A stretch of 64,000 nt of DNA from Hemileia vastatrix (taxonomy: Eukaryota > Basidiomycota > Pucciniomycetes > Pucciniales > Zaghouaniaceae): the NCBI GenBank assembly GCA_030280995.1, contig JASXTE010000005.1, positions 35,964,203 to 36,028,202 of the forward strand, given 5' to 3'. The notes below the pieces were generated by a model, which did not search any database, was not told the DNA's origin, and saw only the letters and a program-made list of their open reading frames with translations. Made by a program: the position numbers and the translations under genes. Below are positions 19,316-60,274 of the stretch, in pieces (the stretch's first letter is position 1; the number at the start of each line of letters is the position of its first letter).

Positions 19316-19318
19316 AGA

Positions 19319-24641: not shown

Positions 24642-24889
24642 TATCACCACAGGAAATCTGGGGGTGAACTGTTAGCAGTTCCCTCTTTTTGAAACTATCA
24701 GGAATTTGTTAGGAAACTGTTGGGAAACCATCCTGAAACTGTCAGAAAGATGTTTTTAAATCTGATGAAAAAACATTGAAAAAATAAACTGTCACAGATT
24801 GAATCCAGAACAATCCCTCCTTGAGCAGAGCTTAAGAACCACATTGAACATCAGTTAATCTCAGGTTTGGCAAAAGGTTGAACAACATC

Positions 24890-25285
24890 ACTTAGCATAC
24901 CTTAATATTCAAATAATAAACTTGAATATATGTTGCGTGTATGATATAGATGCATATGCATTTGAATTTGCATGGTGGATACTTATTGCATGCTAAAAAT
25001 TGATGTGAAATGCCTATCCAAAGTGTATGCATAATGACTATGAAGAATAAATATGCATAAAAAATATGCATAAAAATATGCATAAAAATATGCATATTGA
25101 ATATGCAAAAAAAAGGTGCATATATGTATATGAATAAAATATATTAATATGCATATAAATCTGTATAATGAATATGCATATGAATATGCATAAATATGCA
25201 TAATGATTGAAAAATGCAAAAAAATGATGCTTAACGAGTATATTTTATGCATAAATAGAAATATGCAATATGAATTCATATTGCA
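24890..25285. repeat. ATGCAT-rich subterminal block of element A
   Basis: Dense copies of TATGCATAAAAATATGCATA-like words. The short - strand frames here are low-complexity Met/His/Ile/Tyr translations. A similar block lies in element B at 49015-49390. Confidence 0.8.
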
Positions 25286-25859
25286 TACAGATAACACTTG
25301 CAAACCATTTTGACCAAAACTCATACTAAATTTTCATTCTGGACTAAAGGTGTGAGGGAAGGAAGAAAAACAGTCTGACGTTAGAAAAATGCTACATGCA
25401 CTCATTTTGTAGCAGAGCAAATGAGAAGTGCTGAATTATGGTTGGTGCCCATCATTTAGTATGATATCATAATTTTATTTAATTGTTTTCAATATTGAAA
25501 AGACTTTAGGTCGGTTGGTATGGATCTAGCTGTGCCAGGGTCTAATCTAATTATTTTAACAATTTCTTAATAATTAACGGGCTTTAATACAAAAACAGGT
25601 TGTATTTTTTGTGGGATATTGGATATGATAAGGTCTTTTGTAAAAAAAACTTATATTGTTTAAAAATATTCCTGAATCAGATGTGGGATAATCACTACAA
25701 AAAATTGTAGTACTGTGGGCAATAAAATATATGCACAAGCAGTAAAGAAAGGACCAAGTGAACCCTTTTTGTGCAGTGGGAATCATTAGAGTGGAATTGT
25801 GGATGAAAAATATAATTCATTATTACCATTTTATTTAATCAAAAAATTTATAATATTAA

Positions 25860-28800
25860 AAAGAACTATTGATTAATTGGTATTTGACCTTTGTGCCTCA
25901 CTCATATTTATCATTTGATTGATTTTTGTCACCATTATGTTATTAATATTATAAGTATAGCAAAAACTCGTGTGCCAAATGCATACCGGGTGATGTTACA
26001 CCTTTTATAATATTATTAAATAAAGGTAAAAAAATATGAAAATGATTTGTTTTACAAAAAATAAATTGATATCCAAAAGCAATATGAGGGATAAAAAGGT
26101 AAAATTAAAGGGATCAAATATGAAATAAAAAATTAAAGTGAAATTCTTCCCATCAAGAGCAAGTAGACATGATGGGGTGAACGCCCACCAGTGGCACTAA
26201 ACTTGGACTATAATTTCTTTTTTGTAAAAATAAAAAAAATCCACTGGAGCTTTACCAAAACTTCAGGATGACAATTTTGCCATATCAAACAACTTCTAGT
26301 GTAATTATTGAAGAAAAATTCATTTTCATTGCAATAGAGAGAATTGATCACATCAGACTGCACGTGACCAAAAGTGTCCAGCACAAGTTTGGCCGAACTT
26401 GTTCTGGACACTTTTATGATGGAGGTTAGCTAGGGTGGAATTTTTCTTCAGTTTCTCTGGTATTTCTTATAAATATGTCCACTGGTATTTGATTTTGTGC
26501 CTCACTCATATTTATCATTTGATTGATTTTTAGTCACCATTATGTTTTAATATTATAAGTATAGCAAAAACGTGTGTGCCAAATGCATACCGGGTGATGT
26601 TACACCTTTTATAATATTATTAAATAAAGGTAAAAAAATATGAAAATGATTTTTTTTACAAAAAATAAATTGATATACAAAAGCAATATGAGGGATAAAA
26701 AGGTAAAATTACAGGAATCAAATATGAAATAAAAAATTAAAATAAAATTACTGCCATCAAGAGCAAGTAGACATGTTGGGGCAAATGTCCACCAGTGAGG
26801 CTAAACTTGGACTATAATTGCTTTTTTGAAAAACAAAAAAGTGCCAATCTGAGGTTTAAAAAAACTTCAGCAGAACCATTTAGCCATATCAAACAACTTC
26901 TAGTTCAATGATTGAGAGAGAATTGATCACACCAGACTGCATGTGACAAAAAGTGTCCAGCACAAGTTCGGCCAAACTTGTGCTGGACACATTTATGACG
27001 GAGAGTAGCTAGGGTAGAATTTTTCTTCAGTTAATCTGGTATTTCTTATAAACATGTTCATTGGTACTTGATCTTTGTGCCTCACTCATATATATCATTT
27101 GATTAATTTATTGTCACCATTATATTATTAATATTATAAGTATAGCAAAAACTCGTGTGCCCAACGCATACTGGGTGATGTTACACCTTTTATAATATTA
27201 TTAAATAAAGGTAAAAAATTATGAAAATGATTTGTTTTACAAAAAATAAATTGATATACAAAAGCAATATGAGGGATAAAAAGGTAAGATTTATCTCAAA
27301 GAGATCAATTATGAAAAACAAAATACTAGTATAATTCTTGCTCTCAAGAGCCAGTAGAAGTGTTGAAAAAAATGGGAGCCATCAGGGCTAAATTTTAATA
27401 AGTGAACTTTTTTTTTAAGATAAAAAATTATACACCTGAGGTTGGGAAGAACAACAGGTGGATGATTCAGCCAAACAAAACTACTTGTAGTGACGTTTAA
27501 TAAAAAAATGTTTTTTTGTTGCCATATAGAGAATTGATCCCATCTGACTGCACGTGACTAAAAGTGTCCAGCAAAATTTGGCCAAACTTGTGCTGGACAC
27601 TTTTATGATGGAGAGTAGCTTGGGTGGAGATTTTTTTCAGTTCCTTCATCTTGTATTTCTCATAAACATGTCTACTGGTATTTGATCAGTCTGTATCTTT
27701 CATATTTATCATCCGATTAATATTTTATCACCATTATATCATTAATGTTATTAGTATAGCAAAAACTTGTGTGCCAAATGCATACCATGTGAAGTTATAC
27801 CTTCAATAATTTTTTAAAATAGACGTAAATAAATATGGAAAGGATTAGTTTTACAAAAATTAAATAGAAATTTAAAAGTAAAAAGAGGAATAAAAGAGTA
27901 AAATAAAAGTCAAAGAGTTCAAATATGAAAAAAATACTGGTAAAATTCCTGCTATCAAGAGCCAGTAGAGGTGTTAAAGCAAATGAAAGCCATCAGGGCT
28001 TAATTGTAATAAGTGACCTTTTCTTTAAAGATAAAAAATTATACACCTGATATTGGGCAGAACAGCAGGTGGATGATTCAGCTTAACCAAACTACTTCTA
28101 GTGAAATTTGATAAAAATATTTTTTTGTTGCCATACAGAGAATTGATCCCATCTGACTGCACATGACCAAAAGTGTCCAGCACAAGTTCGGTGGAACTTG
28201 TGCTGGACACTTCTATGATGGAGAGCGGCTGGGGTAGAATTTTTCTTCATTTCATCTGGTATTTCTTACAAACATGTCTACTGGTATTTTATCTTTGTGC
28301 CTCACTCATACATATTGTTTGATTAATTTTTTGTCTTAATTATATTATTAATTATATAAATATAGCAAAAAATTGTGTGCCAAATGCATACTGAGTGATG
28401 TTACACCTTTTATAATATTTTTAAAAAAATGTATAAAAATATTAAAATAATTTATTTTAAAAATTATTAATTGATATCCAAAAGCAATATGAGAAATAAA
28501 AAATTAAGTTAAAGCAATCAAGTATGAAAAACGAACTCCAAGTATTATTGCTAATATCAAAGGCCAGTAGAGATGTTGAAGCAAATGAGAGCCATCAGGG
28601 ATAAATTGTACTAAATTGATTGTTTTTTAAAGATAAAAAATTGTGTACATGTGGTTTGGATGAACTCTAGGTGGATAATTCAGCTATATCAAACTAAATC
28701 TAGTGAAGTTTCTTATCAAATAATTTTTTTCATTTCCATAGAGAGAATTGATCCCATCTGATTTCACCTGACCAAAAGTGTCCAGCACAAGTTCGGCTGA

Positions 28801-31800
28801 ACTTGTGCAGGACACTTTTATGATGGAGAGTAGCTAGGGTGCAGGTCTTCTTCAGTGAAACTGTTATTTTTTTAAAACATGTCAAATGGTATTTGATCTT
28901 TCTGTGTTATTAATATTTTATTATCTGATTAATTTTTTGTCATTAGAATATTATTAATTTTATTAGTATAGAAAAAACTTGTGTGCCAAATGCATGCCAT
29001 GTTATATTACACCTTTTATAATATTATTAAAAAATGTTAAAAAAATATGAAAATGATTTCTTTTCCAAAATTATAAATTAATATCCAAATGTAACATGAG
29101 TGATAAAAAAGTAAAGTAAAAGAGATCAAATATGAAAAAGAAAAATTCAAGAGAAATTCCTGCCTTCAAGAGCCAGTAGAGGTGTTGAAACAAATGGGTG
29201 CCATCAGGGCTAAATTTGATAAAATTTAATTTTTTTTAAAGATAAAGAATTTTTCACCTGAGGTTTGGAAAAATCAAGGTGGATAATTCAGCCATACCAA
29301 ACTACTTCTAATGTAATTATTTAGCATTTTTTTAAATTTAATTTCCACAGAGAGAATTGATCCCATCTGACTGCACCTGAACAAAATTGTCCAGCACAAG
29401 TTCGGCTGAACTTGTGCTGGACACTTTTATGATGGAGAGTATCTAGGGTGGAAGTGTTTCTCAGTACATCAGTTTTTTGTTTTTCACATTTCTATTGGGT
29501 TTTTAACTTTTTTTTATCATTCATATTTATCTTATAATTAATTTTTTGTCACCATATATATTATTAATGTTTCTAGTATAGCAAAAACCTGCATGCCAAA
29601 TGCAAAATTGGTGATGTTACAACTTTAATAATATTATTATATAAAGTTAAAAAAATATGAATATGTTTAGTTTTTAAAAAAATAATATATATTTAAAATT
29701 AAAAAGAGTAATAGAAAAGTAAAATGAAAATAAGTGGGATCAAATACAAAATAAAAAATACAAGTAAAATTTCTACTATCAAGAGCCAGAAGTGGTGTTG
29801 TGACAGTTGGGGACCCCTAGGTCAAGACTTGGTCTAAACTTACTTTTATGTATAGCTAACAAATTTTGACCTGAGGTTTGGACAGACTTCCAGGGGACAA
29901 TTTTACAATATTAAACATTCTTTACTTCAATAATTGAGTGAAATATCATTTTTATTGCCATAGAGAGAATTTATCTCATATGACTTCATGCAACCAAAAG
30001 TGTCCAGAACAAGTTTGGCAGAACTTGTGCTGGACACTTTTATAATTGAGAGTAGGCATACAGCAAATCTTCTTAAACTCAAAAGGGATTTTTTATAAAC
30101 ATTTCCACTGGAATTTGATCTTTCTGTGTCATTTAAATTTACCATTTGATTAATTTTTTGTCATCATTATATTGTTAACATTATTACTATAGTAATAACT
30201 TGTGTGAAAAATGCATACCAGGTGGTGTTCCACCTTTAATCATATATTATTAAATAAAGGTATAAGAGTATGAAAATTATTTATTTTAAAAATTAAAAAT
30301 TGATATCCAAAGCAATATGAGCAATAAAAAAGTAAAATAAAAGGGATGAAATAAGAAAAAAAATCTAAGGAAAATTCCCACTATCAATAACAAGTAGAGG
30401 TGTTAGATCAAATGTGCACCACCAGGGCTAAACTTGCACTATATTTTCTTTTTTGTTAAAAAAAAGAAAGTGTCCTGATGAGTTTTGAAAAATCATCAGG
30501 AGGACATTTTGGCAATATCAAACTACGTATTGTGCAATGATTGAGCAAAATGTCATTTTCATTTCCATAGAGTAAATTTATCCCATCTGACTGCATGCAA
30601 CCAAAAGTGTCCAGCACAAGTTCACCCGAACTTATGCTGGACACTTTTATGATGGTGAGTATCTAGGGTGCAGGTCTTCTTCAGTTCATCAGGTATTCCT
30701 TATAAACAAATCCACTTGTATATGATCTTTCTGTGTCATTCATATTTATCATTTGATTCATTGTTTTTCACCATTATAATATTAATATTATTAGTATTGA
30801 AAAAATTTGTAAGCCAAATGCATACTGGGAGATGCTACATCTTTCATAATATTATTAAATAAAAGTAAAAAAAATATGAAAAGTATTAGTTTTACAATAA
30901 ATAAATTGATATTTGAAAGCAAAAACAGGAATAAAAAAGTAAAATAAAAGTGATTAAATATGAAATTAAACATTCAAATAAAATTTCTGCCATCAAAGAT
31001 AATTTGAGTTTTCAGACAAAATTTGCACCACCAGTTCTAGATTTGGAATATGTTTTCTTTTTTTAAAAATTAATAAAAGTGTCCACCTGAGGTTTTCCAA
31101 AAAATCAGGAGGATAGTATAGCAGTATAAAGCTACTTCTTGTGCAATGATTGAGCAAAAATTCATTTTAACTTCCATTGAGTAAATTTATTTCATCTGAC
31201 TGCATGCAACCAAAAGTGTCCAGCACAAACTCAGCTGAAATTGTGCTGGACACTTTTATGATGGAGAGTAGCTAGGGTGAAAGTCTTCTTCAGTTAATCT
31301 TATATTCATTTTAAAAATGTCTATGGGTATTTGATCTTTCTGTGTCATCCATATTTATTATTTGATTATTTTTTAGTCACCATTATATTATTTATGTTTT
31401 TAGTATAGCAAAAACATGTGTAATGAATGTACACTGGATGATTTTACAACTTTAATAATATAATATAATAAATTTAAAAAAATGAAAAAGTTATCAGTTT
31501 TACCAAAATAAAATTGATATTTAAAAGCTAAAGGAGTAATAAAAGGTTAAGATTAAAATTAAAGAGATCAAACATGAAATAAAGATATTAAGTATAATTT
31601 CTGCTATCATGAGCCAGTAGAGGCTTCAGAAAAAATGGGCACCATCATAGATTAAAATGGATCAAATTTACTTTTTACCAAAGGAAAAAATTGTCTACCT
31701 TAGGTTTGGACAAACTTCCAGGGGACAATTTGTCTATATAAAACTACTTTCAGTGCAATGATAGAGTGATAATTCAGTCTCATTTCCATAAAAAGAATTG

Positions 31801-34500
31801 ATTGCGTCTGATGGCATGCAACCAAAAGTGTCCAGCACAAGTTTGGCCAAACTTGTGCTGGACACTTTTATCATGAAGAGTAGCCAGGGTGCAAGTCATT
31901 TTTAATCATCTGAAATTTCTTATAAACATTTCCACTGTTATTAAATCTTTGTGCCTCACTCATATTTATCAATTGATTAATTTTTTTGTCACCATTATAT
32001 TATTAATATTATCAGTATAGCAAAAAATTGTGTGCCAAATGAATACTGGGTGATGTTACACCTTTTATAATATTATTAAATAAAGGTAAAAAAATATGAA
32101 AATGATTTATTTTACAAGAAATAAACTTCTATCCAAAATCAATATGAGAGGAATAAAGTAAAATAAAAGAAATCAAAGATTAAAATTAAAATCCAAGTTA
32201 AATTCCTGCCATAAACAGAAAAAAGAGATATTGAATTAAATTAGCACAATCAGGGCTAAACTTGCACTAAATTTTCTTTTTTGTAAAAATAAAAAAAAAT
32301 CCACTTGAGCTCTACCAAAACTTCAGCATGAAAATTTTGCCATATCAAACTACTTCTAATGTAATTTTATATCAAAAATTTATCTTCATTTTTATAGAGA
32401 GAATTGCTCCCATCTGACTGCACCTGACCATAAGTGTCCAGCACAAGTTCGGCCGAACTTGTGCTGGACACTTTTATGATGGAGAGTAGCTAGGGTAGAA
32501 TTTTTCTTCAGTTCATCTAGTATTTCTTACAAACATGTCTACTGGTATTTTATATTTGTTCCTCACTCATTAATATCATTTGATTAATTTTTGGTCACCA
32601 TTATATTATTAATTTTATAAGTATAGAAAAAACTGATGTGCCAAATGCATACCAGGTGATGTTACGGCATTTATAATATTATTAAATAAATGTATAAAAA
32701 TATGAAAATAGTTTATTTTAAAAATTATTAATTGGTATCCAAAAGCAATATTAGGAATAAAAAATTAAGTTAAAGGGATCAAATATGAAAAAATAAATCC
32801 AAGTAATATTCCTACTATCAAAGGCCAGTAGAGGTGTTGAAGCGAATGAGAGCCATCAGGGATAAATTGTACTAAATTGACTTTTTTTCAAATATAAAAA
32901 ATTGTGCACCTGTGGTTTGGATGAAATCTAGGTAGAAAATTTGGCTATGTAAAACTACTTCTAGTAAATTTTTTTATCCAAAAAAATTTTTTCATTGCCA
33001 TAGCAAGAATTGATCTCATATGACTGCAACTGACCAAAAGTGTCCAGCACAAGTTCGGCCGAACTTGTGCTGGACACTTTTTTGATGGTGAGTATCTAGG
33101 GTGCAGCTCTTCTTCAGTGCAACTGGTATTTTTTTAAAACATATCCACTGGTATTTGATCTTTCTGTTTTATTAATATTTTATCATTTGATCAATTTTTT
33201 GTTACCAGTATATTATTATTTTTATTAGTATAGCAAAAAAACATGTGCCAAATGCTTACAGGTTGATGTTAAACTTTTAATAATTTTATTAAATACAGGT
33301 AAAAAATTATGAAAATGATTTGTTTTACATAAAATTAATTGATATCTAAAAGAAAAAAAAGGGATAAAAAGAAATAGGTTGAATAATAGGGATTTTATAT
33401 GAAATTCAAAATTCAAGCTAAATGCCTACTTTCAAGGCTCAGAAGAGGTGTTGGATAAAATGGGCATCATCAGGAATAAAATTTTACTTAATTTGATTTT
33501 TTGAAAAACTAAATGAAGTTTTCAACTGATTTTTTTCCAATATTTAGTTGGACACTTTATCTATATCAAATTACTTCTAGTACCATGATTTACCAAATTA
33601 AATCCTCATTTCCATATGCAGAATTGATCCCATATGGCTGGACCAGGCCAAAGGTGTCAACCACAAGTTTGAGAATTCTTCTGGTGGACACTTTTATTAT
33701 GGACAGTATTAGGGTGCAAGTCTTCTTTAGTTAATCTAGTATTCCTCATAAACATTTCCAACTTATTTTTGGCCAAAAATCAGGTGGAAAGTTTTTCCAT
33801 ATAAAATTACTTCTAATGCCATGATTGACTAAAAATTGATTCTCATTGCCATATAGAGAGTTGATCCCATATGACTGGATCTGGCAAAAGTGTCACCACA
33901 ATTTTTGATAAACTTAAGTTTGAAAATTTTATGATGGAAAGTAATTGCAAGTCTTCTTCATTTCATCAAGTAATCCTCATAAAAATTTCCACCTGTATTT
34001 TGGCCAAACTTCAGGTGGACACTTTGACAATATTAAATTAATTCTAGTTCCATGTTGATTAAAAACTGATACTTATTGCCATATATAGATATTAAACCCA
34101 TCAGACTGTGCCTTTCCAAAAGTGTCTACCTGAATTATGGCTAAACCTCAGTTGGACACTTTTATGATGCAGAGTAGCTAGGGCAAAAGTATTCTTCAGT
34201 TAATTTGGTATTCATAATAAATTTATCCTCCTGAAGTTTATCCTAACTTGAGGTGGACAGTTTTGGAAAGCACCAGTTAGTCACTATCCATCAAAAAAGT
34301 GTTCACCAAAAGTTTGGCTAAACTTGTGGTGGACCTCTTTGATCAGCCACAGTCAGATGAGATCAACTCTTTAGATGGGAATGAGGATAATGTTTTGGTC
34401 AATCATGGAAATAGAAGTAGTGTGATGTGGCCAAATTACCCCCCTGAAGGTCAGGCAAACCTCAGAAGGACACTTTTTAGCAGGGAGTAACTGAGAAAAA
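25860..34500. repeat. Satellite array of element A, about 607-bp units with a 46-bp palindrome
   Basis: Twelve well-kept palindromes start near 26370, 26949, 27560, 28169, 28774, 29383, 29997, 30603, 31212, 31824, 32430 and 33037, spaced 579-614 bp. Each reads AAAAGTGTCCAGCACAAGTT then a CGGCCG-like centre and the reverse complement; the copy at 33037 is perfect. Degenerate copies follow near 33650, 33890, 34120 and 34300 at shorter spacing. The rest of each unit is AT-rich and alignable (for example GTGCCAAATGCATACCGGGTGATGTTACACC). Confidence 0.92.
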
Positions 34501-35074
34501 TCCATTTATCAGAAGGAAAATCTTTTATTGGATAGATGTCAAGGTTTCATACTTGTGTATTATGGTCAGTATTAATTTTGAAAGTGTCTGTCCAAGCAAT
34601 TTCATTGCCCATCATGACTCATTTTGTTTTAAATGTTTCAAACTGCGTGATACAGTATTAAGGCTTCACATAGTATAATTAAGTTCTATTAAGTGCCCTC
34701 CTATGATGCCTAAATTTATAATTTAATATCTTACATAATAATTTTTTTATATAAATTCATCAATATTTTATTTTATTATCAAATTTAATAGAGCAAGTAT
34801 CCTGAATTATTATATATGCATAAGCTTAGGTTAGATCAATTTGTGCTCAATTTGTGCTCATCAGAGGACCAAAATCAAGTTCTGGAGGATCAACTTGTGC
34901 ATAATTTGGAATAAGTTGATATTCTGTCTATAATCAAGCTGAGAATAAATGTAAATCTAACTCTAATTTACTTATGTTTATAAAGTATTCATAAACCTGG
35001 CATATTTAAGGGACACTCTAAATTTCAAGAGAGGGGATTGCTAGCAATTCACCCCTAGATTTCCCGTGGTGTAT

Positions 35075-39063: not shown

Positions 39064-39084
39064 CTTGTACAGCTCCTCTTTGCT

Positions 39085-40526: not shown

Positions 40527-40530
40527 GAAA

Positions 40531-44524: not shown

Positions 44525-44599
44525 GCCCCAGTATCCAATATCCTCTCCCAATCTTGAAGACTTGTCCACAAATAACTCTTAATTGTCTAATGCCACTCC

Positions 44600-45430: not shown

Positions 45431-45435
45431 AATAT

Positions 45436-46754
45436 TTGTCTGTATTGGCTGATTTATTACCTAATAATGCCATTCTAGATAGTGGGGCAGCCTTTTCTCT
45501 TTTTAATGACAAATCTTTCTTCTCCACGTACTCTGAATGCAAAACACATCTGTTTATGGCTAATGGAGAGGAACTTCTGGCTCTTGGACAAGGCCTAGTT
45601 AAGTTAACCTCAGACTTGGGTGTAAAATTTGAAATCAATGCTCTTTACACCCAAACGGTTAAATCTCCTCTTATTTCCCCTACTGACCTACTAACAGACA
45701 TTTGGAGTCTCACTAAAAATATCAGTGAATTCTCAATCCTAAAGGGTATGGACACTATTATCAAATGTTTTACCCTGGGAAACATCATTGGCTTTCCTTT
45801 CAAAATAAACATGGTGTGTACTATCAAAAGTTCTCCTTTCTTTCATCTAGAAATTATCCAACTTAGCCTGGGACATCCTAGAAACAAAATAATGAAACTT
45901 GTTCATCCTGAGTTGGACATCTCTAACTAAACTTGTATTACTTTTGATAAGTCTAAGGTGCATATATTTCCCTTTCCAGGACACTTTCCCTCTCCTTTAA
46001 ATAAACTTGAGGTGATCCACGTGGATCTATGCAGTCCTGTGAACTCAATTTCTAAAGGCGGAAAACTATACTTTATACAAATTTTTGATGGTTATACTTG
46101 GTATACACATGTTTTTTTCCTAACTCATAAATCTGAGACTTTTGGTAACTTCAAAATATTTGAAGCCTTAGTCAAAAATCAAACTCAATGCAGCATTAAA
46201 AATGTTGTAACTGATAACGAGGGAGAATTTGTAAACAGACATACTAAACTCATTTTCAAACCAAAGGAATTAATCACTTGCTCACTGCTCCCTATACGCC
46301 TCAACAGAACCCCATCTCCAAAAGAGGAAACAGAAATCTTGTGGAAAAATCTAAATGCCTGTTACTTCAATGTGGCCTAGAAGGTTCTTGGTGGGCTGAG
46401 GCCATAAATACTGCCACCTATCTCCTGAATAAGACACCTTCTAACAATCTACCAAATAATCCCTTGCCTCATTCTCTCTGGACCAATAATCAAAAAGATC
46501 CAACCATTCAACATCTTTTTGGATGTGATGTAATCTACTATGTTGAGAAGTGTAAAAGGGAAGGAAAATTTGATCCCTCTGGTACCAAAGGAATATTTCT
46601 CGGATATGAAGAAGGGCACAACAACGTTTGGATTTATAATCCCTACTCAGATGAAATTGTCATCTCCCACAACGTGAAAGTTCTCAATATCTTTCATGTA
46701 GTGGCTGAAATATCTTTGGGGAATCTGAAGACTCACTTGAATTCCCAAACATAG
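45436..46754 (+). pseudogene. Copia protease and integrase, decayed
   Basis: The protease active site is AILDSGAAFSLF at about 45470. The pre-integrase zinc region (LSLGHPRNKIMKLVHPELDI) is followed by TAA at 45928-45930. Integrase pieces are LEVIHVDLCSP (first Asp), VVTDNEGEFVN (second Asp), and, in another frame from about 46278, TPQQNPISKRGNRNLVEKSK. The usual catalytic Glu in the ERxNR box is Lys here. After it come AEAINTATYLLNKTPSNNLP and GTKGIFLGYEEG. Confidence 0.85.
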
Positions 46755-46984
46755 ATTCATTTTACTTATCTTATCCTCCCTCTACTGAAGAAAACCCAAT
46801 TAATCCTGAAAAAAAACTACAATCCAAATCTGTTAGTCCACCTCCTGCTGAAACTTCACCTGAACTTCCCTCCTTAAAACACTACTCTTGGAAAAATGCA
46901 GACTCACCCCCAGCTAAAGAGATTAACTCAGATATTAATCCCAGTAACCTTATCTCCCACAAAAAATGCATCAATAATATCAAT

Positions 46985-48020
46985 ATGTTTATTTACAATG
47001 ATCTAACTCCTAATTCCTACTACAAAGCTATTAACTCACAAGAAAAGGATGACTGGATAGCAGCCATCAATAATAAACTCAATAGTATTAGTCAACACAA
47101 AGTCTGGGATGAAATCCTGTGTATGCCCACTACCCATCTTTTGGACACTACCTGGAAGTTTAAAAGAGAAACAGATTCCAGAAGTAATATTGTCAAACAT
47201 TAAGCTTGTCTATGTGTGCAGCGTTTTTCTCAAATTGAAGGCCTTGAATTTAATGATACCTTTTCTCCCACTGGAAAACTATCCACTTTACGTTTCCTAC
47301 TAGGTCTTGCTGCTTACAAAAACTGAGACTTGCATCAAATAGATGTCAAATCTGCCTTCCTACATGGCACTCTTGAAGAAGACCTATATTTACAAATTCC
47401 TCTCCACTATACTCCCTCTCTTGAAAACTCCTTCCTCAAACTTAAAAAATCCTTGTATGGCCTAAAACAAAGCCCTCATTTCTGGTACTCTACCCTATGC
47501 CAATTATTTAAAGGCATTAATTTTCTTCCCAGTAAAGCGGATCCTTGCCTATTCATCAGCAAAGAAAACTTAAATCCGTGTTATGTCTTCCTACATGTAG
47601 ATGATATGATCATTGGTGGTCCTGATGTTTCTCAATTTAAGGAAAACATCAAAAAAGTATTTGACATGGATGATCAAGGTGAATTATCCTGGGTCTTAGG
47701 CATGAAAGTCACCGGTGATCAAAAAAATAAAACAATTAATCTTTCTCAATCTTAAAAGAGTCCTCGAATATTTGGCTGGTTCCAAAAATTTTACACTCAC
47801 TCTGGGTAACCTAACTGGTTGTTCACCCACCTCCTTAGTAGCTTACACCAATTCCAATTGGGGAGACTCAGATGAATGTTCTTCTACAACTGGTAGTCTG
47901 ATCTACTATCTGGGCCCCATTGGCTGGCATTCTCGAAAGCAACCAGTGGTCTCACTTTCCACAGCCAAAGTGGAATTCCAAGCCATGACTGGAACTGGAC
48001 AAGATATTATATGGCTTTAA
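46985..48020 (+). pseudogene. Copia reverse transcriptase and RNase H with internal deletion
   Basis: RT: NSQEKDDWIAAINNKLNSIS, then 47330-47755 with HQIDVKSAFLHGTLEEDLYL, KKSLYGLKQSPHFWY and the catalytic box HVDD in place of the usual YVDD. Directly after GMKVTGDQKNKTINLSQS the sequence jumps to LKRVLEYLAGSKNFTLTLGN and AYTNSNWGDSDECSSTTGSL of RNase H. Roughly 80-100 residues normally between them are missing, and the frame differs (47715-48020). Confidence 0.87.
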
Positions 48021-48310
48021 ACCTTATTCAAAGACTTTAATATTCAGCTGAGTTAATCAACACTTTAATGTGATAACCAGGGCACTTTCAAATTAGCATC
48101 GAATCCCTTATATCAACATTGCACTTGCCACGTCAACAGGCAATTACATTGGCTAAGAGACCTTGTCAATAACAAATCTGTCAATATTCAATATATTTCT
48201 TCATCCTACATGCGAGCTGACATTTTAACTAAAGCTCTCCCAAAGCCTGCACACCTATTGTGCACATCTAAACTAAGTCTCTCATCATTGCAGTCTCCAA
48301 CATGGGAGGG

Positions 48311-48781
48311 TGTCAAGATCTAATAAGCTTATCTATCTCTATTTTAAACTTTCCAATATGCCCAAGTCCCTTACCAGTTATTCTCATATAGGTATCCTAT
48401 CAGTAGTATCCATATTTAGTCTCCTATCAGTAGTTAATGAATAATCCTTGAAAGGTATTACTATCTAATTAGTTTCCTGTTGTGTCCAAGTATTAGTTTC
48501 TGCACCTTCTATCACCCAGTACTGTCATCTAGATGCTCAATTATGTTTATCAAGTTTCCAACTCTCTTTTGTCTATAAAAATGGCAAACACTACCACTCT
48601 ATTCTTCATCTTTTCTGTTTGCCTTCTTACCAATTTACACTTAATACTCTCAGTTCCAGGTCCTTCTCCATTATTATTCAGTCCCCAAGTCGTAGTCCCC
48701 TAGTCCTTTAGTCCTTCATTATTGTCAAGTCTTAGCTGTCCTCCAAAGTCCCTAAACTTATTGTTGTCTTTTAACTTTTCA
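48311..48781 (+). repeat. Copia 3' LTR
   Basis: It is preceded by the purine run GGGAGGG, begins TGTCAAGATC and ends TTAACTTTTCA, with CCTTG following. It has a single tail unit, unlike the 5' side. Confidence 0.93.
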
Positions 48782-49014
48782 CCTTGGAATCATCATGGAA
48801 AATTTGGGGGTGAATTGCTAGCAGTTCTCTCTCTTTGAACTCCATGGTGACACTAATTTATGCCATGTATCAGACCTACCATAAATGTCACATTTAGTCT
48901 GAGATTTGTCCTTGATTAAGGCCCAGTGTGCCCTACATTCAGCACAAGTTGATCCAACAGAACTATAATTTGATCCTTAGTTAAGCACCAATTGAGCACA
49001 CATTGATCTAACAT

Positions 49015-50040
49015 ACACATTATGCATGTGTACTCAAAATACATTGTTGATGCATATTGAAAATTCATACAAATTCATTACCAATTATGCATGCATGCTC
49101 AATATGCAATTTGCATTATGCATAATGCATAATGCATATTGAATATTAAGTATTGAATAATTCATGTTGCATATTGCATAAATCATATTGCATAATTTAT
49201 ATTCAATATTGCATAATGGATAATGAATATTAAGTATTGAATAATGCATAATGCATTATGCATTATGCAAGTTTCATATTGCATAATACATATTGAATAT
49301 TGAACAATGCATAATGCATAATGCATGTTGAATATTGCATATTTCATATTGCATGTGGATGCATAATGCATATGCAACATGAAATATTCATGCATACACA
49401 ATGTGAAAATTAACCTTCTACCAAGAAAAGTGAAAAATAAGTCATGTGACCTATAATTTTGAAAAAGGAAAAGAGGAATGATGATTTAAGCTTATTTTAC
49501 AATAGCCTTAGTTTTCATTATATTGTTAGAAAATATGCCTTGAAAAACTATATTGAAAAACCCCATATCCTTGGTGAGAAATTCTTCATCAAGTTTAAAA
49601 AGCAAATTTTAACCGTTAGCATTATCTATATAGCTTCAAATATGGAAGACTCTATGTAAAAAATTTATATCCTCAGTAGTTTACTTATTTATTATCGATC
49701 TCATTTTTATTCTCTGCATAAAGCTTTTGAGGAAAAAAATATTTAAGAGATATATATATTTTATCATGTCTATGTGCCCCAGATTCAATGTGCCAAATTG
49801 TGTTGAATAATCATTTGTTGTATTTGATTTGTGTATTTTGGGTTGAATGCAAAATGAGATTGCCAACTGGGATGCAAAAAAGTTGGCATGCAATATAAAA
49901 TGAATATTGCATAATTAACAGCGGCATTTTAAACTTCCAATTTCATTGATAGATTTTCATACTTGGCTAGTAGTGTGGGGGAACTGGGATGCAAAAAAGT
50001 TGGCATGCAATATGAAATGAATATTGCATATGAAAACAGT
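49015..50040. repeat. ATGCAT-rich subterminal block of element B
   Basis: TGCATAATGCATAATGCATA-like words are dense at 49015-49390. GGGATGCAAAAAAGTTGGCATGCAATAT occurs twice (about 49869 and 49986, given here in shorthand as GGGATGCA...CATGCAATAT). The block has the same place and word as in element A. Confidence 0.75.
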
Positions 50041-51346
50041 GGCAAGCAAAATTTGCAATTCCACTCTTGAATTTTCATTCTTGACTAGTAGTATGGGGGT
50101 TGGTAGCAGTGGTCAAGCAACCACTAAAGAAATTTGTGCACTTATTTTTGAGCAGAGGGTATCATGAGTGTAGTATTATGGAAGGTGCCCATAATTTATT
50201 ATTATTCCTTAATTTTATTGGATAATTTTCAATATTGAAAAGGACTTTTGGTTCATTAGTATTTGATCTAGCTGTACCAGAGCCTTTCTCAATATTGATG
50301 TTACTCTTTAAAATTATTGAATATTTTCCATTATGAGGATTTGATTCTGGTGCAAGTTAATGTTGGCTCTATATTATGACCATTGTAAAACAGAATTACC
50401 TGGTTAAAATTAATTACAGTCAGGAAAAAATGTAGTTATGGTATCTGTTCACTTTAATTATAAGTGAAGGTTGGTTTAATTATCATATTAACCTTATGAC
50501 TGAAAATTGTGGTTCACAAATGTTCAAGTCACTCACTTCTTGAATAATATTAAGAGTTGATAATAGGCATGGATAGTGCTCTAAAGTGAATGTTGGCTTG
50601 TGGGATCTTGTTATCACCGAAAATACTTTACATATTTTTTAATCATGTAATGATCAGTTAACCAATGGTGTGAACACCAGTAAAAATATGTGTTGTATTT
50701 AACATTACATTTACATTTGATGGATGGATATTTGATCAACTCAGTAGCTCATGACATCTAGTAAAATATGTCAAAAACTATAGATGGTGTGGATTATTTT
50801 TCTTTCACAAGTTGATAATAGGGAAATGATGAACCAATGTTTTGGAGATGAACATGCTGGTATTATCAAGTCTTGTGGGTCAGAGATAGAATTTTTGGGT
50901 TATTTGTGTAATAAATTATATTTACAAAGTCTGTGCATTCAATGTAATGCCCTTTGATCAATATATTTATACCTGATCCATCAGCAAAAGGTAAAAATAA
51001 TGCAGAATTCAGGTTAACTCTGACAACCATTTTTGATGGAACACAACAACTTATATAAAAAAGGCCTTGACATCTGGTGCAAATTTTTCCCCTAGGAATT
51101 TATCTTTATCAAACTAGTTATTTCTAGGAATATTATGAGTCAAATCATTTCTCACCACATCAAATATTGTGTGGACTGGTTAACAAGATACTTGATTAAT
51201 GCTTTAATTCTAGAATATTAGCTTCCAGAAAGTACTTGACTGATGGTCAGATGCACATTTGTGCAAGTGGGTGACATAAAGCATAAACAAGGCTGCAACA
51301 AGGCAAATTTATAAATTAATATGTTTTTGAACCTTTGAAAAGCATG

Positions 51347-51607
51347 CACTACGCAATATAGGGGGTGGACTTGCTGGCAAGTCCTCAACTTGAACTCAGA
51401 TGGAACTCAGGTGGAACTCAGACTGAACTCAGACTGAACCCATACTGAACTCTACTTGAACACCCACCTAAAACTGTTCTTCTGAGTGGTGTTCATCCCT
51501 GATTGTATGGTTCCTTTATCAATAGATCAATGTGTGTTCAATCTGTGGTGAGTTTAGGTCCAAGGTTTCAGACTTGCTGGCAAGTCCACCCCCCATGTTG
51601 TGTGGTG
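51347..51607. mobile_element. 261-bp MITE inside element B
   Basis: The left end is CACTACGCAATATAGGGGGT; the right end, reverse-complemented, is CACCACACAACATGGGGGGT, both continuing GGACTTGC. The target duplication is ATG (51344-51346 and 51608-51610). The middle holds TGAACTCAGAC repeats. The ends follow the plan of elements A and B. Confidence 0.8.
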
Positions 51608-54263
51608 ATGGTTATTAAATTTTTTGTCCCACCTATATTTGTGCTACAGTATGTATTGATTAATAAATCAATCTGCTACTTAGGAAAAATTATTTAAAAT
51701 AAAAATGTGAAGAATGTTGAAGCATTATTACTTTACAACTCCTATGATTTTCCTAAACCATTTCATGTTAATGGCCTAAGTGAAGAAAATTCAAATATCA
51801 CAGTTTCCACATATGTATGGGATAATATTTATCTTCTCATAATAATAATATAATGAACTTGTCCTTACCAGTTTATTATCTATGATTGGGGTATTGTTGA
51901 ATCTCATGTGCCACATGCATCTGGCAGAATTCTATACTTTGATCATAATAATAAAAGGATATTTGGCAGTTAAATATTTTTATTGTATGTTAAGAAAATA
52001 TTATTGTTTTCTTTTCAAAAATTCAACGGCTCAATTCTATTTTTTTAATAATAACTGTGTGTTGAAATATGCTTTCCATTATATTATTATTTTTGAGGTA
52101 GTATTATTTTGTGTTCCAAAGAAATCAGCCAGAATTATTTACCCTGAATAATGATAATTTAATAAAATGCATTTTTCAAATATGGGATTAATATCTTAAG
52201 TACATTTAAAAAAACAGTGGTATCTGGATTTACATGTCACCAAGTGTCCTTCTGAGCATTGGCAGAAGCTGAAAAAGATAATTTAATAAAGCATATCAGT
52301 AAGGGTATAAGTCTGTGAAAGTTGGGTAGTTGTAATTATTAAAGTGTCCTTCTCAGCAATGGACCATTACTCAAGTGGAAACTTTAGGTTCTGTGCAACA
52401 GGATGGCAAGGGTTTTGCTAATTTCCATAGTATTTGATTGTTGGCTAGCCATAAAAGTGAAGGTGTTGCAGACTTGGTCAAATTTGTCCTTCTGAATGAC
52501 ATCTGACACTCTGAAGGACACTTTTATAATGCATATCATCTAGATATTATATGTATACATATCTATCTTTAATGCATTATAAGTGTTTCCTTCTGAGAAT
52601 TGGACCGTCACTCAGAAAGACACTTTTGACCAAGTCTGCAACACCTTCATTTTAATGTTTAACCAATGTTCCAGTACCAAGACTATTAAAAGAGCTCATG
52701 TAATTTACAGTACTTAAAGTTTTCACCTAAACAATGGTTCATCACAGAGAAAGACAGTTTTATAAATGTTAAAGATAAAATGGTTATATATAATACCTAT
52801 ATGATATGCATTATAAAAGTGTCCTTCTGAGTGTTGGGCTGTCCTTCAGAAGGACACTTTTGACCAAGTCTGTAACACCTTCACTTTAATGGTTAGCCAA
52901 CAATCAAATACTATGGACATTAGCAAAACCCTTTCCATATACTTAAACATCACTTGAAGTGTCCTCATGAACAATGGTCTGTTTCTGAGAAGGACAATTT
53001 TAAATTTCAAATAAACTAGGTGTTATATATATACCTTTGTACTATTTATGAATTATAAAAAATTATTGTGCACACAATCAAATATTGTGTGGACTGGTTA
53101 ACAAGATACTTTTTTGATCCTTTAACTCTTTATTTTAAGTTTCAAGAAAGTATTTGACTTATGATCAGAAATATTTTTGTGCCAGTGGTTGACATAAAGC
53201 ATCAACAAGGCTGTAAAAGGTTCAATTTTAAAATTAATAGATTTTAAAACCTTTGAAAAGCAAGGGTATTAATTGTTTTTGTTCCAACTATAAGTGCGCT
53301 ACAGTAGCTATTTAGTAATTAATCAATCTCTTACTTAAGAGAAAATATTTAAAATACAAATTTGAAGAATGTTGAAGAATTATTATTTTACAACTCCTAA
53401 GATTTTCCTAAATTTTATAAATGTTAATGGCCTTAGTGAAGAAAATTCCAATATCACAGTTTTCACATATGTATAAGATAATATTTTTCTTTTTCTTTAT
53501 AATAATTTTATGAATTTGTTCTTACCAGTTTATTATTTATGATTGGGGTATTTTTGAATCTTTTGTGCCAAATGCATCTGGAAGAATGCTATACTTTGAT
53601 CATAATAATACAAGGATATTTGGAAGTTCAATATATTTATTATATGTTAAGAAAATATTACACTTTGCTTTTCATATATCAAATGTCTTAATGCTATTTT
53701 TTTCATAATAATTGTGGGTTTCAATATGCTTTCCATTATATTATTATTTTTTGAGGTAGTATTATTAGTACCAAAGGAATTGGAATGATTTTTTTACCAT
53801 GAATAATAATAAATCAATAAAATGCATTTTTCAAATATGAGATTAATTTTTTAAATACAATGAAAAAACAGTGGTATCTGGACTTACAAGGCACCAATTA
53901 CACTTCTGAGCATTGGCTCATGCTGAGTAAGATACTTTTATAAAGCATATCAGTAAGTGTATAAGTCTGTAGAGCATGGAAAGCTCAAAATATCAAATTG
54001 TTCTTTTCAGAAATGGACCATTGCTCAGGTGGACACTAAAGGTTCTGTGCAATAGGATGGAAAGTGTTTTGCTAATGTCCATGGTATTTGATTTTTGGCT
54101 AACCATAAAAGTGAAGGTGTTACCAACTGTGTCAAAAGTTTCCTTCTGAACAAATGTCCAACGCTCAGAAGGACACTTTTATAATGCATATTATCTAGGT
54201 GTTATATGTATACATATCTATCTTTTATGCATTATAAAAGTGTCCTTCTGAGCATTGTACTGT

Positions 54264-55335
54264 TGTGGTCTTCCAAAATTGGCAGGGGCCTTTGTTGTGT
54301 TGTTTGGCACTGTTTGTGAATGTCTTAATTGACATCTGTTGAAGAATTGGGTGTTTTTCTAGGTTTATTCCGTAAATATTGGGACTGCAGGTATGTGGGT
54401 ACTATCATTGGATAGCCCCGGTTTTTCTCTATATTTCATGTCTTGATGATATTTTACACATTCTAAGTTTTAAGGGGTCATTTCCTCATTTTCAGTTACA
54501 AAAGATAGTTGTTTAACTTTGTTTTTCATGTTTTATGGGCTAGCTTTAAGTCTTAGGGTTAAGTGCTTAGTAACATTAGATAGGGCTTATTTAGCTCTAT
54601 ATTTCATGTCACAATGTTGTTATAGCCTAATTCTGTGTTTTAAGGGTTTTAGTAGTTGTAGTGAATTTTTCTAAGTAGATTAGGTGTTTTTATTGGTTTT
54701 CTGGCTTCAGGGAGGGTGGGCTGCTTCAGGCGGCCTGCCCGCCTCTGTTTTAGAAGGTTGGGGAGCGCTTCTGGAGGGTTTTTATTCAATTTGGCTGGTA
54801 CAGGTGCCAAATTTGTTGGTGTGCATGGGCTCTTAGATAGTGGTCTGTGTGTACATAGTGAATAAGACAGTTTGGGGCAACCTTAATCATCATACAACCA
54901 TCTGGAGGTGATATTCTTGTTCCTCACTCAGTTTTCACTGTTTTCTGGCCACAATTTGGCTGTGTTTGTTGCAAGTGAGTTCTTCATTTAACTTAACTTT
55001 GGAAACTGTTTCTCTGTTATAGTCTTGCAAGCTATAGCAATTATTATTGATGTCTCTGGTGTGGATTTGCAGCCTACATCAAGTATCTTTGCTTTCTCTG
55101 GTGTGGACATTGGTCTACATTTCAGTTATTTGGTCTGGTAGTCTTTCTGGGGACTACTTTCTTGGCTCATCAAGCAGTCAAGTGTGTTGAAAAAGGGGCT
55201 TTAGTAAACAGGAACCAACTTACTTTAGCAAGTAAATCTCACTCTATTTTTCTAAAGGGACAGGGGATTTTCTCTCTGGTTTTTCTCCAACTCCCTTGGT
55301 CAAGGCTTATAGCTAGTACTATGGGATTGTCTACA
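54264..55335 (+). repeat. Solo LTR of the G3 type inside element B
   Basis: It begins TGTGGTCTTCC and ends GGATTGTCTACA, 1072 bp, and matches the G3 LTRs in opposite orientation. No internal retroelement sequence adjoins. It lies in the loop of an element B palindrome, whose arms are on either side (54236 and about 55345). The flanks ACTGT and CTTTC do not give a clean 5-bp duplication. The frame at 55162-55380 is LTR sequence. Confidence 0.88.
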
Positions 55336-58300
55336 CTTTCCTACAGAAGGACACTTTTGATCAAGTCTGTAATACCTTAAATTTAATGTTTAACTAGAGT
55401 TCAAGTACCAAGGCTATAAAAAGAGCTTATTTCATTTACAGTACTTAATGTTTTCACCTATATATTAGTCCATCACTAAGAAAAATTTATAAACTTTAAT
55501 GATAAAATGGTTTTATATAATATCTATGATATAAAATATAAAAATGTCCTTCTGAGCATCGGACTGTCCTTCAGAAGGACACTTTTGACCAAGAAACCAA
55601 GTGTGAAACACCTTCACTTTAATTATTAGCCAACAATTAAATACCATAGTCATTAGAAAAATCCTTACCATCCTATTGCAAAGAACCTAAGGTTTCCACC
55701 TGAGCAATGGTCCGTTAATATGAAGGACGTGTTTAAAAGGCATAACATCTTGGTAATAAATGTATATATTTGTATCTTTTATGCATTATAAAAAATCATT
55801 TTACACTACATAAATATTGTGTGGACTGGTTAATAAGATGCATTTTTAACCCCTTCAATTTTAGATTATTGGCTTGCATAAAGTACTTGACTGATGGTCA
55901 GAAAATTATTTGTGCTAGTGTGTGTTATAAAGCATCAACAAGGCTGTAACAGGTCCAATTTGTAAATTAATAGGTTTTTGCACCTTTGAAAAGCAAGGGC
56001 AATAATATTTTTTCCACACCTATATTTGTGCTTGAGTATGTATTGATTAATCAATCAAGCTGTTTCTTGGGAAGAATTTTTTTAAATAGAAATGTGATGA
56101 AATTTGGGGCATTATTATTTTACCAATTTTTTGATTTTCCTAAATCATATTTATGCTAATGGCCTCAGTGAAGAAAATTCAGATATCACACTTTTCACAA
56201 ATGTATGGGATAATATTTTTCTTTTCATAATAATAATATAATTAGCTTGTCCTTACCAGTTTATTATCTATTATTGGGGTATTGTTGAATCTTGTGTGCT
56301 AAATGCATCCAGCAGAATGCTATACTTTGATCATAATAATCAAAGGATATTTGGCAGTTCAATATATTTATTATATATTAAGAAAATATTATTCTTGGTT
56401 TTTATATATTCCCATGGCTTAAGGCTTTGTTTTCAACAATAATTGTGTTGAAATATTTTTTCAATTATATTATAATTTTTTGAGTTAGTCTTCTTTTGAC
56501 ATTTAAAAGCATTGGCCAGAATGTTTTACCTTATATAATGATTATTCAATAAAATTCATTTATAAAATATAAGATTAATTTTTTAAATACAATTAAAAAA
56601 CAGTGGTATCTGGCTTTAAATGGCACCAAGTTTCCTTCTGAGAATTGGCTGATGCTGAGGAAGACACTTTTATAAAGTCTATCAGTGAGGGTATAAGTAT
56701 GTGAATGTTGGGTAGTTGTAATTATTAAAGTGTCCTTCTCAAAAATGGACTATTTCTCAGGTGAAAACTTTAGGTTCTGCGCAATAGGATGGCAAGGGTT
56801 TTTCTAATTTCCATGGTATCTGAGTGTTGGCTAACCATAAAAGTGAAGGTGTTACAGACTTGGTCAAAAGTGTCCTTCTGAAGGACGGTCAGACACTCAG
56901 AGGGACATTTTTATAATGCATATCATCTAGGTATTATATGTATACATATCTGTATTTTATGCATAATAAAAGTGTCCTTCTGAGTGTTGGACCATCCTTT
57001 AAAAGGACACTTTTGACCAAATCTTTAGCACCTTCAATCTAATGTTTAACCAATTTTCAAGTACCAAGGCTATTAAAAGAGCTCATTTCATTTACAGTAC
57101 CTAAACTGTCCTCCTTAAAAATGGTCCATCACTGAGAAAAACAATTTTATAAATTTTAAAGATAAAATGGTTATATATAATACCTAGATGATATGCATCA
57201 CAAAGATGTCATTCTCAGATACAGACCATCCTTCAAGTGTATAACTTTGAACAAGTATTGTGCACCTTCAACTTTATGTTTAAAAAAAACAAATATTAGT
57301 GCCTTTAAAAAATTCATGCCATATACTTACACATTTTCTATAGTGTCCTTCTGAAAAAAATTCTGTTGCTGAGAGGGACACTATAAAAATGCATATCATC
57401 TTGGTATTATACGTATACCTTATCATCTTTCATGCATTATTAACAATCATTTCTCACCACATCAAATATTGTGTGTACTTGTTAAAAAGATACTTTTTTA
57501 ACACTTTAATTCTAGATTATTGGCTTCCAGAAAGTACTTGACTTATGGTCAGAAAAGTGTTTGTGCAACTGGGTGACATAAAGCATAGAAAAGGCTGTGA
57601 CAGGTCCAATTCATACATTAATAGGTTTTATCACCTTTGAAAATCAAGGGTTTTAATTTCTTTTACCATCTATATTTGTGCTAGATTATGTATTGATTAA
57701 TCAATCAATCTTTTACTTGGGAAAAGTTATTTAAACTATAAATGTGAAGAGATTTTGAGCATTATCATTTTACAACTCCATAGATTTTCCTAAATCATAT
57801 TCATGTTAATGGCCTAAGTGAAGAAAATTCAGAATGCAAAGTTTCCACATATGTATGGGAAAATATTTTTCTTTTCATAACATTAATATAATAATCTTGT
57901 CCTTACCAGTTTATTATCTAAGATTGGGGTATTGTTGAATCTTGAGCCAAATGCATCTGGAAGAATTCTATACTTTTATTATAATAATAAAAGAATGTTT
58001 GGCAGTTCAATATATTCATTATCTTTTAAGAAATTATAAATTTTAGCTTTTTATATATTCTTATTTATTAATGCTATGCTTTCAATAATAATTGTGTGTG
58101 TGAAATATTCTTTCCATTATATTATTAATTTTTGAGGTAGTATTATTTTTTGTTCCAAATAAATTGGACTGATTTATTTACCTTAAATAATAATAGTTTA
58201 ATAAAATGCATTTTTAAAATATAGGATCAATGTTTTAAACAAAATTAAAAAGAAACTGTGTTATCTGGCCTTAAATGGCACCAAGGGTTTTTCTGAGCAT

Positions 58301-60274
58301 TGGCTGATGCTGAGGAAGACACTTTTATAAAGCATATAAGTTAGTTTAAAAGTCTATGAAACATGGGTTTTTAGAATTGTAAAAGTGTCCTTCTCAGAAA
58401 CACTCCATTGCTCAGGTGGACACTTTAGGTTCTGTGCAAAAAGATGGCAAGGTTTTTTCTAATTTCAATGATATTTAATTGTTTGCTAACCATAAAAGTG
58501 AAGGATTTACAGACTTGTTCAAAAGTGTCCTTCTGAAGGATGGTCCAACACTCAGAAAGACACTTTTATAATGCATATCATCCAGGTATTATATATATAT
58601 ATATAAATCCTTTATGCATTATAAAAGTGTCCTTCTCAGTGCCAGACTGTCCTTCAGAAGGACACTTTATTCCAAGCCTGTAACACCTTCAATTTAACGT
58701 TTAACCAATGTTCAAGTATCAACACTATTAAAAGAGTTCATATCATTTAAAGTACATAAAGTGTTCACCTGAACAAAAGTCCATCACTGAGAAAGACACT
58801 TTTCTAATTTTTGATTGATATAATGGTTATATATGATACCTATATGATATGCATAAGAAAAGTGTTAATCTCAGCAACAGGCCATACTTCAAGTGTATAA
58901 TTTTGAACAAGTATGGTGCAACTTTAATTTTATTTTTAAACAATAATCAAATACAGTGGTCTTTAGAAAACCTCATACCATCTACTTACACATTGCCTAG
59001 AGTGTCTCCCTGAACAATTTTCCATTGCTGAGAAGGACACTTTTATAATTAATATCAACTAGGTATCATATGTATACATGTGTATCTTTTATGCATTATA
59101 AAAGTGTCCTTTTCAGTAATGGACTGTTGTTCAGGAAGACACTTTAGGCAATGTGTAAATAGATGGCATGAAGTTTTCTAAAGGCCATGTTATTTGTTTA
59201 TTGTTTAAATATAAAAGTGAAGGTGCATTAGAGTTCCTCAAAATTGTTCACTTAAAAGATAGTCTGTTGCTGAGAATGACAATTTTTAATTACCTATTGT
59301 ATAGGTATTATAAATAATCAGTGCTACTTTTGTGCTTTATAAAAGTGTCCTTCTCAGTGTTGGTCCATCTTTCAAGTGGATAATTTAGATACAGTGTATA
59401 ACATGAGCACTTTTACTTGTCTTGTTACTCAAAAGTTGACTAATCCTAAAGGTGAAGGTGTTACAGACTTTTTCAAATGTGTCCTTCTGAAGGATGGCCT
59501 GTTGCTGAGAAGGACATTTTTATAATGCATTCTTATAGGTATTTTATGTATACCTATCTATCTTTTATGCATCTAAATAGTGTCCTTCTCAGCTACAGAT
59601 TTTCTTTCAGAAGGACACTTTTGACCAAGTCTGTGATACCATTAATTTCATGTTTAGCAAATATTGAAGTACCATGGCTAGTAAAAGAGATCATGTCATA
59701 CACAGTACATAAAGTGTCCACTTGAAGGGCACTTTAATAATTGATACAAGCTATGTTGCACAGATTTACATCCAGACCAACATTTATTCTAAAATTATCC
59801 TCCTTACAAATGAAAAAAAATTTTGCAGTAAACTTTTTGCCATTATTAGATAGATCTCATGAGTTCTTTATCTTCAACTTATCACTGAATTCAAGTCATC
59901 CTTTCATTAAGGACGCCTAAATATGACATGATGTATCACCATTGAATGTGTTTGTTACTAATGAAGGAATTTCTATAATGAATACTACAAGCAATTTAAC
60001 TATATATGTAAATTAGCAGCTTGAATAATATGGCACATTAAACTCAGTGCTTAACCTTTGATCAACCTGGGTTAATATTTTTTTCAATGTAACTTCATTG
60101 CTCTTATCAAGATAACTTCAAGTAAGGGTAAATCTGGTTTCAATCATTGACCAATTTTTTTTCAATTTTTTTAAATCAAATTTCCCAAAAGTTTACCAAC
60201 CTACTCCAGACCATTTCTTAATTATTTCAAAGGGGGAGAATAGCTAGCAGTTCACCCCCAAGTTTCCTGTGGTG

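Follow-up and report, generated by a model that had tools for sequence, protein, structure and literature searches.

How can two DNA elements of more than 10 kb, without recognisable genes and built mostly of satellite repeats, stand between exact borders and short target site duplications (TSDs)? This question is raised by a 64-kb window (the whole stretch analysed, C260:35964203-36028202) from the 747.6-Mb, 791-contig assembly of the rust fungus Hemileia vastatrix (GCA_030280995.1), the single assembly used throughout. Element A occupies positions 24645-35071 of this window (10427 bp) and element B positions 48791-60274 (11484 bp), both with exact borders. We suggest, with a probability of about 0.83, that they are gene-free elements of the CACTA/EnSpm type, mostly composed of satellite DNA and likely mobilised in trans by larger relatives with matching ends, which appear to contain tnp2, SNF2 and TET-like open reading frames (ORFs).

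Borders, ends and coding content of A and B

The original prediction, made from the letters of the window alone, had given both elements borders and 3-bp duplications (TAT for A and AAT for B) that proved exact to the base (Table 1). It had also claimed that A interrupts a pol frame. This was confirmed: A lies in the pol region of a gypsy retrotransposon and, when A and one TSD are removed, the joined flanks align with the second gypsy copy of the window (6482-7771) with 72% identity over 1293 bp, without gaps at the junction and with the few existing gaps all more than 100 bp away from it. The paralogous pol copy displays the empty site of A. In B, the left flank is 95% identical to 43699-44170, a repeat on the far side of a Copia-like element; the match ends 9 bp short of the start of B, so no empty site was obtained for this element. 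Inside B, we found a miniature inverted-repeat transposable element (MITE), named C, with its empty site seen in three other B satellite units (81-83% identity), and a solo long terminal repeat (LTR) with no obvious target duplication, whose empty site is also seen in sister units. Since both are absent from sister units, they are later insertions, and B proper has ~10.1 kb, near the size of A.

When the first 42 bases of the left and right ends are compared, 36 are alike in A and 32 in B. The four ends align as CACCACAGGAAACTTGGGGGTGAACTGCTAGCAGTTC-like terminal inverted repeats (TIRs), with an inner part GAACTGCTAGCAGTTC that is palindromic itself. The pattern CACYAC-N9-GGGGGTGRAC, with up to 3 mismatches, is found in the window at the four ends and at one unrelated site, where 0.52 matches are expected, and no shuffle reached 5 matches. 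These shuffles, together with a reversed-core control that found nothing genome-wide, rule out a chance likeness of the ends. The TIR pattern had no match in the viral_contigs or genome_contigs collections. The predicted CAC ends hold for both ends of A and for the right end of B, but not for the left end of B, which reads CATCAT. Element C has CAC..GTG termini at both ends, its left end being the only one with CACTA as the first five bases, since A and B begin with CACCA or CATCA.

The absence of a transposase ORF had also been predicted. The longest stop-to-stop frames have 116 aa in A and 109 aa in B, against shuffle means of 107 and 108. The six frames of both elements, with stops written as X, showed no transposase in a Pfam search and no match at all with E <= 0.1, except for a weak Hedgehog domain in B (E 0.008, below its cut-off). 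This search rules out a hidden transposase; A and B are non-autonomous and have no recognisable genes.

As expected from the prediction, satellite DNA accounts for most of both bodies: in A, 13 monomers of ~605 bp take up ~7.9 kb of its 10.4 kb, and B is made of ~1.65-kb units. Part of the earlier description had to be changed, since the satellite is palindromic in the sense of short palindromes within tandem monomers and not as a single long palindrome. The idea of one family including A and B stands only for the ends and a 9-bp box, which are common to both. Their bodies are mostly dissimilar, with common pieces of 70% identity over 286 bp and 81% over 86 bp. A and B are separate families, not copies of one element.

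Genome-wide copies and coding relatives

A 21-base end core was found with up to 2 mismatches 2789 times in forward and 2793 times in reverse orientation, while the reversed control gave 0. These are counts of ends and not of copies, and they take in any relative sharing the core, such as the element G described below. From the perfect core matches listed on contig C2, we paired 30 plus/minus neighbours within 45 kb by hand. A perfect 3-bp TSD is present in 26 of the 30 pairs, G included (10/10, 15/18 and 1/2 in the three sets), compared with 28 of 462 combinations of deliberately mispaired ends (22 of the 30 pairs used). Nearly all ends of these pairs are CAC..GTG, CACCA being the common type. 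Coinciding borders and a 3-bp duplication at other copies were the two points on which the original prediction had staked its case, and on both the result agrees with it.

Ten element bodies (e1 to e10) were read. From end to end, identity with A reaches 96.9% in e1 and 96.5% in e2, whereas monomers 2-13 of A (n=12) have 72-86% identity with monomer 1. The divergence among monomers is far beyond that among copies, which indicates that the array predates the spread and that the copies moved with their arrays. The elements e3, e4 and e5 have 8.0, 6.8 and 9.2 kb, corresponding to ~4, 6 and 2 monomers fewer than A by arithmetic on their lengths. Among the longer ones, a scan of 10 chosen ORFs within A copies detected LTR retrotransposon domains in e6 and e10 and a Harbinger-like DDE_Tnp_4 transposase in e9; e8 carries an extra ~4 kb, and e7 bears two left-type ends. 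For this reason, e6-e10 could not be accepted as autonomous on length alone, considering the foreign domains in e6, e9 and e10 and the ends of e7. The stretch L038-L039 (C2:9018600-9037560, 18.8 kb) has two left-type ends, two A arrays in opposite orientation and no matching TSD, possibly a two-headed rearrangement. It is scarcely conceivable that the copies as a whole are segmental duplications or an assembly artefact. Although one assembly was examined, most copies have their own 3-bp duplication and different flanks, and the empty site of A is present in the paralogous pol.

A related coding element, which the prediction had recommended looking for, was found at C2:22731712-22768131. This 36.4-kb element, G, has A-type ends, a TAT duplication and a tnp2 (Transposase_21) domain, making it a candidate source of transposase. 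Its end stretches have 74% identity with those of A over 271 bp and 83% over 265 bp, the latter being the last ~265 bp of the right arm of A. The transposase ORFs match Transposase_21 (5e-16) and, more weakly, Plavaka (2e-5, below cut-off) and RAG1 (0.004). Two other ORFs have SNF2 domains (8e-26 and 4e-18), and one encodes a Tet-like 2OG oxygenase (PF20515, 4e-15), a type of match that was found neither in A nor in B.

At least 134 genomic matches were found for the transposase piece of G; those other than G itself have 87-94% identity, and several lie in long open frames. Three of the matches on C2 are within the range of the end list; for two of these (G and a copy named H, at C2:3000792), an end core lies ~6.42 kb upstream. 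In H, the transposase match is 89% identical, the left 2575 bp have 96.35% identity with G and include a 411-aa frame across the SNF2 region, and the palindrome array is at the position predicted from G. The SNF2 region is therefore at the same place in two copies, and the TET-like ORF was seen in one. When the genome was scanned for Transposase_21 (PF02992), 150 places were scored out of 2198 first-look candidates, and all 150 matched the domain, against none of 14 control genomes. A 781-aa sister transposase is 73% identical to that of G over 277 aa and has 11 matches in the protein collection with 25-35% identity, among the best-sharing candidates, which were the ones scored.

Regarding the superfamily, the target duplication of PIF/Harbinger elements is TWA. 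The 26 TSDs observed here include ATT, GAT, AAG, TGT, ACT, GCT, AGT, ATA and TAT, with TAA occurring twice and no TWA consensus in the others. It is most unlikely that A and B belong to PIF/Harbinger or to Plavaka, and both were rejected on the basis of TSDs and termini. In their favor, TSDs of 3 bp are a feature of Harbinger and PlavakaB as well (PMC12730594), the G transposase has the weak Plavaka match mentioned above, and the left end of B begins with CATCA as PlavakaB does. However, TWA is found in only 2 of the 26 TSDs, the usual ends are CACCA instead of the CATCA..TGATG of PlavakaB, with CATCA only at the left end of B, and the top Pfam match is Transposase_21. The 3-bp TSD of CACTA/EnSpm is present in A, B, C and the 26 genomic pairs; the tnp2-type transposase of this class is absent from A and B and present in G, their relative with matching ends.

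A palindrome and paired boxes in the satellites

A palindrome of 46 bp, AAAAGTGTCCAGCACAAGTTCGGCCGAACTTGTGCTGGACACTTTT, is present with varying exactness in every A monomer, always at the same place. The array of G, a satellite otherwise unlike that of A, contains 34 palindromes of this kind and is located 11.8-15.8 kb from the left end; the steps are mostly of 102 and 137 bp, and near-regular in both G and H. In 10-bp windows, A and G palindromes have identities of 0.82-0.93 inside the block and 0.23-0.52 beside it, the higher values touching the block edges. In the 64-kb window, the palindrome half-site is confined to A.

The box AAAGTGTCC occurs exactly 27 times in A, 22 in B and 39 in the G array, where 0.03 is expected for each, but is absent from the rest of G and has a single occurrence in the remaining 42 kb of the window. 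We scanned for inverted pairs of this box, allowing one mismatch per box and spans of 29-69 bp. There are 14 pairs in A (13 with a span of 44 bp and one of 43), 15 in B, all with 45 bp, and 27 in the G array, all with 44 bp. A constant span of boxes with a varying inner sequence is the trace expected of a two-headed binding site.

The array may have no role at all: slippage and unequal exchange would have generated the satellite within a CACTA element, and the palindrome would be common to A and G by descent or gene conversion. We take this as a real possibility, though not a favored one. The growth of satellites within transposons is documented (PMC9659126, PMC7320549), and the copies differ by about whole monomers. 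On the other hand, identity between A and G monomers is chance-like around the palindrome, the 46-bp windows with the highest conservation in the A monomer alignment (0.93; mean 0.83) fall on the palindrome, and B retains the outer boxes at a fixed span despite its different inner sequence. A conserved palindrome and a fixed box span are not easily given by neutral descent. It is improbable that the palindrome itself entered both arrays as a very small mobile or self-copying element. The edges of the 46-bp block are sharp among unlike filler, as would fit such an invader, but the fixed place per ~605-bp monomer in A, the near-regular steps in G and H and the confinement of the half-site to A speak against it.

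The center of the palindrome, TTCGGCCGAA, holds two CpGs. At their four positions, 18 of 52 bases in A and 47 of 136 in G deviate from the consensus, mostly by C>T or G>A changes, against 29 of 546 and 95 of 1428 in the rest of the palindrome, which is a hint of methylation. However, the changes in G are spread very unevenly over the two strands of each CpG (18 vs 3 and 18 vs 4), and two non-CpG positions of the palindrome also have C>T/G>A changes (11/34 and 8/34), so this is not a clean methylation footprint.

In the mechanism that we propose, a G-type (tnp2-class) transposase would cut A and B at their ends, in trans. The paired AAAGTGTCC...GGACACTTT boxes, with a fixed span of 44-45 bp, are predicted binding sites of an element-encoded protein, and their arrays may be the counterpart of the TNPA sites of plant CACTA elements or of the VANC target repeats of VANDALs, which are plant Mutator-like elements. 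GGACACTTTTA may resemble the maize TNPA motif, but the motif string was not found in the literature searched. The gene-free elements would have lost all genes while keeping or enlarging the binding array, which would grow and shrink by unequal exchange between monomers. As TET-like and SNF2 ORFs are present in the coding relative, an anti-silencing role would fit.

A bolder reading, which we regard as tentative and rather unlikely, takes the satellite as the working part, an address array. A DNA-binding element protein would dock on the 44-bp palindromes of fixed geometry and recruit the SNF2 remodeller, the TET-like demethylase and the transposase, and array-rich gene-free elements would outcompete their coding parents for these proteins and flood the genome.

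Several points weigh against the mobilization of A and B by G-like relatives. The mobility itself is deduced from sequence and not from observed transposition. Four of the 30 end pairs have no TSD; two of these unite same-type ends (e7 and L095/L096), and two have their ends ~42 kb apart (L064/L065 and L066/L067, the left end of the latter lacking CAC). The ends of A and G are only 74-83% alike, and no coding relative of B was found. Coding copies read at the DNA level are two, G and H, the latter in two pieces; the outermost bases of H differ from the TIR, and neither a right end nor a TSD could be located for it. The transposase of G is spread over several ORFs, so G may itself be dead. It also contains at least one nested retrotransposon, a Copia, and its SNF2 and TET-like ORFs are only presumed to be native. 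A third G-type transposase (C2:6518322) has no listed perfect end core at the expected spacing, and 20 transposase loci with 1.5-kb flanks (L068-L087) have neither such ends nor the palindrome, although at 3.4 kb each they are too short to decide. Concerning the arrays, that of G is internal and not subterminal as TNPA sites are, and B has only the outer boxes, without 46-bp palindromes.

Surroundings of the elements and relation to known systems

The gypsy element split by A extends from 18207 to 41626, with LTRs (18207-19300 and 40528-41626) that are 95.2% identical; the bases printed beside them do not agree as a target duplication. Its pol protein has no confirmed relative in the viral_contigs or genome_contigs collections. 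Pol fragments 81% and 55% identical to this rust gypsy are found in records P0012 and P0054 (Xanthomonas sp. A2111 and a Streptomyces), likely contaminations of the bacterial assemblies. Within the 3' part of this minus-strand gypsy, at 19229-22218, there are four plus-strand ORFs (254, 166, 207 and 144 aa), three of them without Pfam match, with CxxCxxxKKxC motifs that we take to resemble half a fungal zinc cluster. A Copia-like element (43699-48781) has ~200-bp tandem copies internally, on its left side. The repeats at 63-642 and 10837-11312 are related, each with 19-bp minisatellites, and have a relative (74-75%) inside G. Finally, an exon of carbonic anhydrase (61253-61708) has its nearest named matches in Puccinia triticina (57%), P. 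striiformis (56%), P. graminis (54%) and Phakopsora (49%), with two further matches at 59-60%.

Table 1. Features of elements A, B and C in the 64-kb window, and one coding feature from another locus (last line).
Feature	Position	Strand	Remark
TSD TAT, left of A	24642..24644	.	
A left TIR, CACCACAGGAAATCTGGGGGTGAACTGTTAGCAGTTC...	24645..24693	+	end type found at numerous copies across the genome
A left arm outside the 605-bp array, AT-rich with ATGCAT tracts	24645..25881	+	
A array, 13 tandem monomers of ~605 bp	25882..33760	+	
Two partial ~230-bp repeats, monomer-related	33773..34228	+	
A right arm including right TIR (reverse CACCACGGGAAATCTAGGGGTGAATTGCTAGCAATCC)	34229..35071	+	
TSD TAT, right of A	35072..35074	.	
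TSD AAT, left of B	48788..48790	.	
B left TIR, CATCATGGAAAATTTGGGGGTGAATTGCTAGCAGTTC	48791..48835	+	
B array, ~1.65-kb units with inverted sub-repeats, broken by C and the solo LTR	51147..59730	+	
Element C, 261-bp MITE inside B, TSD ATG, related ends CACTAC/CACCAC-N8-GGGGGTGGAC	51347..51607	+	
Solo gypsy LTR in B	54264..55336	-	90% / 89% to LTRs 18207-19300 / 40528-41626
B right TIR (reverse CACCACAGGAAACTTGGGGGTGAACTGCTAGCTATTC)	60230..60274	-	
TSD AAT, right of B	60275..60277	.	
Tet-like 2OG oxygenase ORF in a CACTA element that also has SNF2 ORFs	L090:6997-7527		

The CACTA/EnSpm class and satellite-carrying transposons are already known; the architecture seen here is a variation on them. 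Rust EnSpm elements with CAC..GTG ends and 3-bp TSDs, some with TET/JBP, were described by Kojima (2025, PMC12730594), who assigns rust families by CAC..GTG; this paper places TET+ families of EnSpm in P. striiformis and names six Pucciniales species with related EnSpm. Our elements share with them the CAC..GTG termini and the 3-bp TSD; G also has an EnSpm/Plavaka-like transposase and, between its ends, a match to a dioxygenase of the TET/JBP type that may belong to a nested insertion. A and B differ in being gene-free, a separation made by description and not by sequence. The main text of that paper has no mention of SNF2 or satellites, and its lone "non-autonomous" passage is about TET genes.

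The right border of the soybean element Tgmt* has 12 palindromes made up of 24 subterminal repeats, and a TNPA-type protein binds such repeats in maize En/Spm (PMC2613891). A motif repeated in direct and inverted orientation as palindromes, the 3-bp TSD and the large size (20.5 kb in Tgmt*) are common features, but the repeats of Tgmt* occupy 159 and 732 bp beside the ends, unlike the ~7.9-kb array of A and the internal array of G. VANC proteins bind short tandem motifs in the non-coding part of VANDALs, leading to loss of methylation, and these arrays expand and contract (PMC10398659). The tandem arrays that change in size are similar here, where protein binding is only predicted and where, in contrast to VANC, the effector role would fall to TET and SNF2. 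DNA transposons that carry or give rise to satellite monomers are also reported, namely the CACTA element Jozin of Chenopodium (PMC7320549), Tetris of Drosophila and the Helentrons of oyster (PMC4079207, PMC7492417). Unlike those cases, the satellite here makes up most of a many-copy element, the palindrome is kept across unlike monomers and the boxes have a fixed geometry. In the open-licence literature, searched in part, neither satellite-bodied CACTA elements in rusts nor an association of SNF2 with elements of this type turned up.

These elements offer a concrete many-copy case of a tandem satellite dispersed by transposition, with target duplications as evidence. They also point to a possible coding partner in rusts that unites a CACTA transposase, an SNF2 helicase and a TET-like enzyme. 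The persistence of a discrete 44-bp module amid differing surroundings makes the question of why satellites spread a testable one, and if the array does work as an address, the satellite would spread by winning the competition for an anti-silencing machine.

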